Source: Kribbella sindirgiensis (GTDB lineage: Bacteria; Actinomycetota; Actinomycetes; Propionibacteriales; Kribbellaceae). From it: 64,000 bases of DNA. The position numbers and the translations under genes were made by a program. Every line of letters begins with the position of its first letter. Positions within the stretch are counted from its first letter, which is position 1. Positions 48,321 to 51,264 of the stretch are shown here, piece after piece. The notes below the pieces were generated by a model, which was not told where the DNA came from, made no database searches, and was given only the letters and a program-made list of their open reading frames with translations. Location of the stretch: positions 124,001-188,000 of the forward strand of contig NZ_SJKA01000007.1 of assembly GCF_004331435.1 (NCBI RefSeq), given 5' to 3'.

Positions 48321-49544
48321 ATGAAGAACGTCAACCGTCGGACCATTCTCGGAGGTGCTCTCGCTGTGAGCGCTACCGGCTGGCCTCTCAAGGCGTCGGC
48401 CACGGAGGTCCCGGCGGGCGGTGTGCAGCCGCGTCCGGCGCCGCGGCCCGTTGCGCCGGTGAACGCTGAGATCGCGGCCGCCCACGCGGCGACGTACAAG
48501 ACGCTGCCGCAGGTCGTCGTCGGGGTGGACGTCGAGGAGCTGATGAAGATCCACACAGCGGCGGACGCCGACGCACTGCGTCCACAGCTCGTCGCACAGG
48601 TGTGGAAGGACACCGGCGTGCTGCCGACCGATCTGCCCACGGTGACGCGTGACATCGGTGTGCCGGCCGCGCTGCCGGAGTTCACCGGCGTACGGCGCTA
48701 CGACCAAATCGACGTGGCGATGCCGTTCGGGTACGTCGCCACGGTGTTCGTACTTGAGCCGACGCAGAGCACGCACCGGCGGGTCGCGTTCTACCACAAC
48801 GGGCACGGTGAGGGTCTGGACACGATGCAGCGGGTCGCACAGGGCCTGCTCGACCACGGGTACACCGTGCTGCTGTTCGCCATGCCGTTCTACCACTGGA
48901 ACCCGAAGACGCTGCAGGACCCGGCCGACCCCACCAAGCAGCTACAGCCGTCGCACAACGACCTGCCGCAGTGGGCCTCGGACACGTACTCGCCGCTCGC
49001 GCTGTTCCTCACACCGCTGGCCGTGGCGATGAACTACGTGCAGGCGACGTACCGTCCGTCGTCGGTGCAGATGATCGGGCTGTCCGGCGGTGGCTGGGCG
49101 ACGAGTGTGTACCCGGCGCTCGACACGCGGATCACCCGGTCGTACCCGACCGCCGGCTCGCTGCCGTTCTTCGTCCGGCCGGGGTCGCCGAAGCCGAGCC
49201 CGACGCGCGGTGACTGGGAGCAGCGGTTGGACATGCAGCCCGGGTTCTACGGGCTGGCCGACTTCCCGGACTTCTACGCGCTCGCGTCCGTCGGGCGGAA
49301 CCGGCGGCAGATCCAGATCCTCAACCGGTTCGACGAGTGCTGCTTCAACGGCGTCGGGCACCGGTCGTACGAGGCGGCTGTGCGGCAGCGGATCGCCGTG
49401 ATCGGGACCGATGCGGTGAGCAACGAGTCGAACGGCCACTGGGAGCTGCTGGAGGACGCGACCCACGGCGACCACACGATCAGCCCGTACGCGCTGTCGG
49501 TGATCCTGTGGGATCTCGACGTCCACTGCGCGCACCTGCCCTAG
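48321..49544 (+). CDS. Tat-exported alpha/beta-hydrolase (probable carbohydrate esterase)
   Basis: 407 residues. The signal NRRTILGGALAVSATG is Tat-like. The catalytic domain has the nucleophile elbow GLSGGGW (Ser255), an oxyanion-type region FYHNGHGEG (about 158-166), a probable acid in the FDECCFNGVGH segment and a late His in DATHGDHTIS. The architecture suggests an acetyl- or feruloyl-esterase, but the CE family cannot be fixed. It begins 6 bp after the esterase fusion and is surely co-transcribed, so it likely shares pectin as substrate. Its TAG stop lies in the terminal CTAG of the adjoining palindrome. Confidence 0.75.
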   Translation: MKNVNRRTILGGALAVSATGWPLKASATEVPAGGVQPRPAPRPVAPVNAEIAAAHAATYKTLPQVVVGVDVEELMKIHTAADADALRPQLVAQVWKDTGVLPTDLPTVTRDIGVPAALPEFTGVRRYDQIDVAMPFGYVATVFVLEPTQSTHRRVAFYHNGHGEGLDTMQRVAQGLLDHGYTVLLFAMPFYHWNPKTLQDPADPTKQLQPSHNDLPQWASDTYSPLALFLTPLAVAMNYVQATYRPSSVQMIGLSGGGWATSVYPALDTRITRSYPTAGSLPFFVRPGSPKPSPTRGDWEQRLDMQPGFYGLADFPDFYALASVGRNRRQIQILNRFDECCFNGVGHRSYEAAVRQRIAVIGTDAVSNESNGHWELLEDATHGDHTISPYALSVILWDLDVHCAHLP

Positions 49545-49993
49545 TGTCCTGAGTCGAAAGGTCGCGATATAAGTCCAGGCTCGAAGCCCTCATCATGGCC
49601 GGCCGGCAGCACGTTCCCCAGCACGACCAGCGCCGACGGCATCTTTGTGCACCCACCAACCCAATCCCGGCCGTTTGCGTGGTCGAGCCGTGCACAAAGA
49701 AGCGCCGCGCCGCGACGCGACGCGGCGCGACGCGACCGGGCTTTGGGGAGGTTTACCCTCCCGAAATGGGCTGTAGAGCTCCCCGGTTCCGTCCACGGAC
49801 CTCCCCAAACCGGTTTGGGGGGGTGCCTCTTCGTCTTTGTGCACGGCTCGACCAGAAACCGGCCGGAAAAATGGTTGGTGGGTGCACAAAGATGCCGTCG
49901 GCGCTGGCTGTGCTGGATGAGGTGCCGCGGGCCGGCCGTGATGACGTCTTCGGGCCTGGACTTAGCTCACGAACTTCGGGCGCAGGACACTAG
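49541..49993. repeat. Long imperfect palindrome (about 450 bp), MITE-like intergenic element
   Basis: The whole gap between two convergent genes is one large inverted repeat. Outer ends are CTAGTGTCCTG (49541-49551) and CAGGACACTAG (49983-49993). A perfect 35-bp arm pair lies at 49627-49661 and 49873-49907, a perfect 20-bp pair at 49681-49700 and 49834-49853, and an 11-bp pair at 49742-49752 and 49799-49809. CTTTGTGCAC and its complement GTGCACAAAG occur twice each, so each arm can also fold on itself. Both flanking genes end with TAG inside the terminal CTAG. It has no convincing coding capacity. It may be a non-autonomous transposable element with a CTAG duplication, or a bidirectional terminator-like structure. 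Confidence 0.85.
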
Positions 49994-51264
49994 CGGATCT
50001 GGTGAACGTCCTTCACCGGACGGCGGTTGACAGTGACGTTGTCGAAGGTCAGCGCTGCGTGCTGGACGGTGCTCGGCTGGTCGACGGTGAACGTGCAGTC
50101 GACCAGCCGGAAGTCCTCGATTCGGGAGTTCCGGTAGCCGCGGAGCAGGAGCGCGTTGCGCGCGTGCTCGACCTTCACCCCGCGCAGCTCGACGTTCCGC
50201 ACGGACGGCGTGAGCGGGCCGGCCTCGCCCTCACCGCGGTGGAAGTTGCACTGGACAACTTCCTTCAGAACGTCGGAGACCGTGATGTCGCGCAGGTAGA
50301 CGTTCTCCACGAAACCGCCCCGCACCGCATTGGTCTTGATGTACAAGGCGAAGTACGGGCCGCCGATCCGGCAGTTGCGGACGTACACGTTGCGGATACC
50401 GCCGGTCAGGTCCGAACCGAGCGTGATCGCGCCGTACTTGACCCGCAGCTCGCAGTCCTCGATCAGCACGTCCTCGGTCGGTACGTCGACCCGCAGGCCG
50501 TCCGCCTCACGCCCGGACTTGAGCGCGATGCAGTCGTCGCCGGCGTCGATCACGCAACCGGAGACGACGACCGAGCGGCACGACTCGAGGTCGATGCCGT
50601 CGTTGTTCGGTCCCTGCGAGTCGATGATCAGATCGCGGATCGTCACGTTGCTGCAGAGCACCGGGTGGATCTGCCAGAACGGTGAACGGACGACGGTGAC
50701 GCCCTCGATCAGCACGTTGGTGCAGTTGTACGGCTGCACGAAGCTGGATCGCAGCCGGTTGCCCCGCAGCCGGTCCGCGAGTGGCACGCCGTACCAGCTC
50801 TGTTCGCGGAGTGTCGTGAACTCCTCGTCGCACTCGTGGAACCACTGCCACCAGTTGTCCCACGAGCCTTGCCCGTCGAGCATCCCGGTGCCGGTGATCG
50901 CGATGTCGGTGCAGCCGTTCGCGTAGATCATCGGCGCGTGATTCAGTACGTCGAGACCTTCGTAGCGCGTCTCGACGAGCGGGAGGTAGTCGGCCGGGTC
51001 GGTGCTGAACAGGAGCGTGGCGCCCTCGCTGACGTGCAGCTCGACCGACGACAGCAGGCGGATCCCGGTGGTGTGCCAGCGCCCGGGTGGTACGACGACA
51101 CGCCCGCCGCCGGCCTGATGGCATGCCTGGATGGCGGCCGCGATACCGGGACCGGCGTCGTCCTCGACCGCGCCGTACGAGGTGATCGGGAAGTCGACGG
51201 CGGGAAAGACAGGCGGCCGGGCATCGGCGAGGATGCGGTCGGCGTCGGCCCAACCGGCGGTCAC
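49990..51264 (-). CDS. GH28 family glycosidase, no signal peptide
   Basis: 424 residues. Beta-helix with GPNNDGIDLESC and AGDDCIALKSG, so the N-x-D and DD residues are kept. At the GHG position it has VKYGAITLGSD, and RIK is replaced by YIK in FALYIKTNAVRGG. It lacks a signal, so it acts on imported oligosaccharides. It is closest to the next protein (51261) and arose by duplication. GTG 51264 overlaps the upstream stop (GTGA). It is the last gene of the three-gene GH28 operon and its stop abuts the palindromic element. Confidence 0.85.
   Translation of the reverse strand: MTAGWADADRILADARPPVFPAVDFPITSYGAVEDDAGPGIAAAIQACHQAGGGRVVVPPGRWHTTGIRLLSSVELHVSEGATLLFSTDPADYLPLVETRYEGLDVLNHAPMIYANGCTDIAITGTGMLDGQGSWDNWWQWFHECDEEFTTLREQSWYGVPLADRLRGNRLRSSFVQPYNCTNVLIEGVTVVRSPFWQIHPVLCSNVTIRDLIIDSQGPNNDGIDLESCRSVVVSGCVIDAGDDCIALKSGREADGLRVDVPTEDVLIEDCELRVKYGAITLGSDLTGGIRNVYVRNCRIGGPYFALYIKTNAVRGGFVENVYLRDITVSDVLKEVVQCNFHRGEGEAGPLTPSVRNVELRGVKVEHARNALLLRGYRNSRIEDFRLVDCTFTVDQPSTVQHAALTFDNVTVNRRPVKDVHQIR

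Follow-up and report, generated by a model that had tools for sequence, protein, structure and literature searches.

A probable IS630-type miniature transposon of Kribbella, inserted at a CTAG where two converging genes end

IS870 of Agrobacterium, an autonomous element of another insertion sequence (IS) family, needs CTAG as its target, from which its own frame obtains its stop codon. IS630 (Shigella), also autonomous, reportedly prefers the TA in CTAG, a preference credited to the title of a paper by Tenzen and Ohtsubo of 1991. For ISY100, an autonomous member of the IS630 family, duplication of TA in vitro is described in the available part of PMC2170065. Two dispersed repeats of pneumococci are also comparable with the locus described here, as far as the accessible portion of PMC3049150 goes. 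RUP (Streptococcus pneumoniae, with IS630-Spn1) is a small repeat of 107 bp with IS630-family-type ends that is over-represented between convergent genes, and SPRITE is a terminator-like dispersed hairpin enriched near gene 3' ends.

The window, that is, the whole stretch of 64,000 nucleotides analysed here, is C52:124001-188000 of the Kribbella sindirgiensis genome (G000; 8.9 Mb, 54 contigs). Between two convergent genes in this window lies a palindrome of 453 bp (49541-49993), which is very probably a non-coding IS630-type miniature transposon of Kribbella, inserted at a CTAG where the two genes end. The element has several copies, terminal repeats shared with IS630-type transposons, CTAG at the ends of its full-length copies, and empty orthologous sites. 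It is also short and has no transposase gene inside, which together with the foregoing are among the properties of an IS630-associated MITE. In its small size, IS630-type ends and position between convergent genes it is like RUP. Unlike RUP, it is 453 bp long (with an additional group of 167-168 bp), uses CTAG targets, and is palindromic and modular inside, with its ends on stop codons. It is classed as a new family of IS630-associated MITEs, RUP-like in its anatomy and not counted as RUP, the two being compared by description and not by sequence. Unlike IS630 and ISY100 it is without a transposase, and the TA duplication proposed for it is that of ISY100. The likeness to IS870 concerns its putative partner, because the transposase frame of the Kribbella IS630-type transposon seems to take its stop from the CTAG target too. 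The likeness of its core module to SPRITE is likewise one of description, not of sequence, and, unlike SPRITE, this module is also carried within a transposable element. Among the matches listed (titles and abstract starts) from the literature on IS630, MITEs, convergent genes, bidirectional terminators and Kribbella, there is no report of this element family.

The original prediction, made from the letters of the window, described the whole intergenic space as an inverted repeat. This is confirmed for the 453 bp, with the refinement that it is an imperfect palindrome of composite build, in which terminal repeats enclose hairpin modules of two kinds. The outer arms measure 121 nt and are 83% complementary, and the inner pair measures 21 nt and is perfect. 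The longest perfect inverted pair, of 35 bp as predicted, joins 49627-49661 (+ strand) with 49873-49907 (- strand), compared with a maximum of 18 in 200 mononucleotide shuffles. The predicted internal repeats are present as well, GTGCACAAAG or its complement occurring four times. As RNA, the palindrome has a predicted folding energy of -344.2 kcal/mol, against -191.4 (S. D. 5.9) in 100 dinucleotide shuffles (z -25.8).

The predicted CTAG is found at both ends (49541-49544 and 49990-49993), and each contains the TAG stop of a flanking gene: 49542-49544 is the stop of the + strand gene, which ends at 49544, and 49990-49992 (CTA) is that of the - strand gene, which ends at 49990. The TA at 49542-49543 and that at 49991-49992 would be the two copies of the duplication, and under this TA model the miniature element proper (G...C, 447 bp) would span 49544-49990. 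Its left terminal repeat (GTGTCCTGAGTC..., 49544-49579, + strand) resembles the end of IS630-family insertion sequences, and the right one (49955-49990, - strand) reads GTGTCCTGCGCC... in reverse complement. The interior consists of a left arm-hairpin module (TCTTTGTGCAC...GTGCACAAAG, 49637-49703, + strand), a G+C-rich stem of 13 pairs followed by TTCTTTGT on the - strand (49702-49733), which is the best terminator-like site, a core module (49737-49822, + strand) containing the exact palindrome CCCCAAACCGGTTTGGGG at 49803-49820, and a right arm-hairpin module (49834-49903, - strand).

That no transposase or open reading frame explains the palindrome, as had been claimed, is correct locally, since the reading frames inside it (mechanical list) match no Pfam family at E ≤ 1, but it does not extend to the genome, which contains IS630-type transposons with the same ends. 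The start of contig C51 lies inside one of them. The 139-residue fragment encoded there has matches in Pfam (DDE_3, E 3.5e-13) and in NCBIfam (transpos_IS630, E 5.9e-25; 88.3 bits, below the whole-protein cut-off of 100), and the element that carries it has the end CTAGTGTCCTG, identical to MITE ends. At four other contig ends (C2, C15, C19, and C30) the assembly breaks 99 bases into an IS630 end of this kind, and a complete relative, 92% identical and flanked by CTAGs, is present in G016. Transposase relatives (E ≤ 1e-20) occur in 12 of the 38 genomes of the genus, the own one included; G031 and G032 have MITEs with these ends, yet no transposase hit at this threshold. The terminal repeat of the window copy is 77% identical to the IS630 end over 39 bases, and other copies reach up to 85%. 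No similarity to the IS was seen past the terminal repeats, the match extending no further than about base 39 in an IS end of 99 bases (the IS interior in G000 is unassembled, so the comparison is one of ends). Derivation of the MITE by internal deletion of the IS is thus not supported by the IS ends compared. In each of the seven IS copies whose right end was located, the stop codon of the transposase frame is the TAG within the CTAG on that side (three further loci, L120, L122, and L129, are without both ends visible). Therefore, the CTAG target would appear to supply or complete the transposon's own stop as well.

The proposed search for other copies of the ends and arms gave three more full-length copies in the own genome (C22:464795, C10:49153, and C50:391795) and ends elsewhere in the genus. 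These three are 86-90% identical to the window copy, and all four full-length copies have CTAG at both ends; shorter or mosaic relatives in G000 have the same ends. Among the 38 genomes of the genus, the full element is found in the own genome only (E ≤ 1e-20, 17 candidates scored per genome). The 168-bp copies at different loci on C22 and C44 are mutually identical. Of the four copies in G031, three are identical and the other, which is inverted, has two differences; of the five in G032, four are identical (one of them inverted) and the last differs at one base. The identical 168-bp copies at separate loci are a sign of recent movement. A relaxed end pattern occurs in 11 of the 38 genomes, with no match for the reversed control, and a stricter one in 13 of 391 genomes drawn from the order, eight of the 13 being in Kribbella.

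The preferred reading entails the following course. An IS630-family transposase would cut the element out and insert it at the TA of a CTAG, duplicating the TA. Since G is the first base of the element whichever strand is read, TA followed by this G would read TAG on both flanks, and a gene ending in TAG (or TAA) at the target would therefore keep its stop and its full length. Insertions elsewhere would mostly be lost, so that most survivors would lie at the 3' ends of genes; CTAG is scarce in this G+C-rich genome, and the few such sites at gene ends would mostly be stop codons. By this fit of target rule, terminal base, and stop codon, a transposon could spread in a compact genome without coding loss, and the scarcity of CTAG would steer the surviving insertions to gene ends.

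The baseline frequency of CTAG was determined in 1.2 Mb of G000, in 60 stretches of 20 kb (L160-L219) spaced for the most part at 100-kb intervals along the larger contigs. The steps at C22:130000, where there is an element, and at C52:130000, inside the window, were omitted; genes in G000 stretches were called by our own script. CTAG occurs 356 times, a tenth of the expectation from base composition. With 21 element-like ends removed, there are 335 ordinary sites, of which 96 are in genes, 58 on one stop, 19 on two stops, and 162 elsewhere intergenic. The elements compared are the 30 with two ends (14 in G000 and 16 in five other genomes), their stop contacts being tallied by hand. Copies with a single end scoring above the threshold were excluded, both in G000 (L046, L078, L081-L083, L085, L089, L090, L100, L102-L104, L109, and L157) and in other genomes (L275-L278). 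The end model, built partly from the same copies, places the ends and is no independent test of them.

Both ends contact a stop in nine elements, one end in 14, and neither in seven. At least one end lies on a stop in 23 of the 30 elements, compared with 77 of the 335 ordinary CTAG sites (p 5.6e-9), and both in 9 of 30 compared with 19 of 335 (p 1.2e-4); in these comparisons the baseline covers G000 only, while 16 of the 30 elements come from other genomes, and copies that share a genome are not entirely independent of one another. The elements are also concentrated between convergent genes (21 of 30, with two that have a missing neighbour scored as not convergent), compared with 190 of 1010 gene neighbours (p 3e-9). 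Within convergent 3' zones, the numbers on both stops, one stop, and none are 19, 28, and 21 for the baseline CTAG sites and 9, 9, and 3 for the elements (p 0.11 for at least one, p 0.15 for both). Since the elements are no more on stops than CTAG sites in these zones, special targeting of stop codons is rejected; the coincidence with stops thus follows from the CTAG rule and survival at convergent 3' ends. A truncation artefact, with the TAG cutting a gene short, is ruled out at three loci: the window, where the + strand gene keeps its C-terminal residues, L114, and the right gene of L113.

The convergent setting of 21 of the 30 two-ended elements is also consistent with another explanation, namely that, however the element arose, it is retained because its hairpins terminate transcription in both directions, or act as an insulator, between convergent genes with overlapping stops and no room for a terminator. 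This is possible, if rather doubtful. The interior modules are also found alone, for the most part at the 3' ends of genes. Copies of the core palindrome CCCCAAACCGGTTTGGGG number 48 in G000, 41 in G022, 20 in G025, 14 in G001, six in G023, four in G017, and one each in G004 and G019; it is absent from 30 of the 38 genomes, and the reversed control is also without a match. Where it lacks a terminal repeat, its neighbouring genes converge in 14 of 25 cases (p 5e-5, one contig-edge site set aside), and between tandem genes it is nearer the upstream stop in eight of nine cases, the ninth being a tie. The first ten palindrome sites of G022 include four convergent, one divergent, and one inside a called gene, and all four tandem sites are nearer the upstream stop (12 of 13 in the two genomes). 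The arm hairpin occurs without terminal repeats at four G000 sites (C9:56600, C7:85771, C2:236534, and C4:34207), three of them convergent. The interior looks like 3'-end hairpins taken up by the MITE, or a MITE interior outliving its ends.

The very strong folding also speaks for a terminator, as do five terminator-like sites found on both strands of the element (mean 0.7 in shuffles), the best being the 13-pair G+C stem followed by TTCTTTGT. All four full-length copies retain the G+C-rich run with its TTCTTTGT tail and, on the opposite strand, a TCTTTG tail. However, the runs of T are short, are broken by other bases, and lead into the following hairpin, and outside the palindrome the copies (51 in G000, 15 in G022) show no clear covariation. 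At ten G000 offsets the observed pairing is reached by at least 29 of 300 shuffles, save at a nearly invariant offset (8 of 300), so that selection on the hairpin is unsupported by covariation. Moreover, the same positional bias follows from the loss of insertions in genes and promoters, an explanation also offered for pneumococcal repeats in the available part of PMC3049150. It is conceivable, and in our estimate unlikely, that the element serves as a portable insulator working in both directions, a MITE driven by IS630 and built from host 3'-end hairpins that slips in between convergent genes at a shared CTAG stop, restores both stops via its terminal G, and gives a terminator to gene pairs without space for one.

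As for the duplication, the original prediction of a non-autonomous element flanked by a 4-bp CTAG duplication was right about an element at CTAG, in view of the copies, the empty sites, and the matching IS, whereas the duplication is better read as TA inside the CTAG target. TA within CTAG is present on both sides of copies, together with empty CTAG sites, and a CTAG duplication would look alike at the copies with CTAG at both ends, which are most of them. One copy, L084, with CTAG on the left and CTAA on the right, favours TA. One end is no longer CTAG in five of the 14 two-ended G000 elements (L047, L084, L091, L093, and L105). That the element makes a 4-bp CTAG duplication and was moved by another transposase family (IS5-like or IS427-like) would agree with the CTAG at both ends and has a precedent in MITEPsy1 of Pseudomonas syringae, possibly IS5-related, which duplicates 4 nt at CTAG or YTAA according to the part of PMC3189936 available; it is very improbable, however, because the terminal repeats match those of IS630-family transposons present in this genome and elsewhere in Kribbella.

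The window site is empty in all eight named Kribbella loci that have both flanking genes, with 5-134 bases between the gene alignments and nothing element-like, so that the suggested comparison of orthologous sites agrees with insertion. The + strand gene in these orthologues ends in TGA (seven) or TAA (one), and the pre-insertion CTAG is absent from the site in all eight. For the 168-bp relative at C44:43754, empty sites were found by script-joined flanks in four of the four genomes found. Each of these genomes has an overlap of exactly four bases between the two genes. It reads CTAG in three of them, where it holds the stops of both genes, and CTAA in the fourth. Such overlapping convergent genes, and the same genes separated by the element, form a before-and-after pair that allows the effects of repeats on convergent transcription to be tested. 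The joined-flank query for L113 gave no contiguous empty site, and comparison of the core palindrome sites of G022 (15 loci, 10 distinct sites) with 60 loci of G000 gave two weak flank matches (L221/L105 and L227/L145). With other copies elsewhere and empty orthologous sites, the sequence is neither unique nor shared by the orthologues, in keeping with the mobility suggested for it. That the palindrome is instead a fixed, immobile host RNA or regulatory structure, for which the strong predicted fold might speak, is scarcely credible given the several copies at unrelated loci, the empty sites, and an Rfam 15 scan with no family at the gathering score (one hit, 22.2 bits against 47).

The + strand flanking gene (48321-49544) encodes a 407-aa protein that has no match to Pfam or NCBIfam at E 0.001 and has the same C-terminus as its orthologues; the - strand gene (49990-51264) encodes a glycosyl hydrolase of family 28. 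Relatives of the 407-aa protein occur in Kribbella and other actinobacteria (53-96% identity, 16 named loci), and the neighbours of its gene are pectinesterase-like and family-28 hydrolase genes.

In the 60 G000 stretches (L160-L219), the overlap is of exactly four bases in 27 of the 190 pairs of convergent neighbours, and CTAG is the stop of both genes at 20 sites, one of them element-like. In G018, two elements of about 540 bp (C1:420717-421259 and 8146213-8146749) bear the same IS630-type ends. At L105 (G000:C52, 2325-2372) the left end is present in two tandem copies, 24 bases apart, and at L079 (G000:C5, 2417-2447) there is a 31-bp relic with two terminal repeats back to back, from CTAG to CTAG, adjoining another element end. 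At G000:C2:278107-278150 (L082, 2728-2731), one CTAG is common to the right end of a MITE and the left end of an IS630-type element, the end of one element having apparently served the next as a target.
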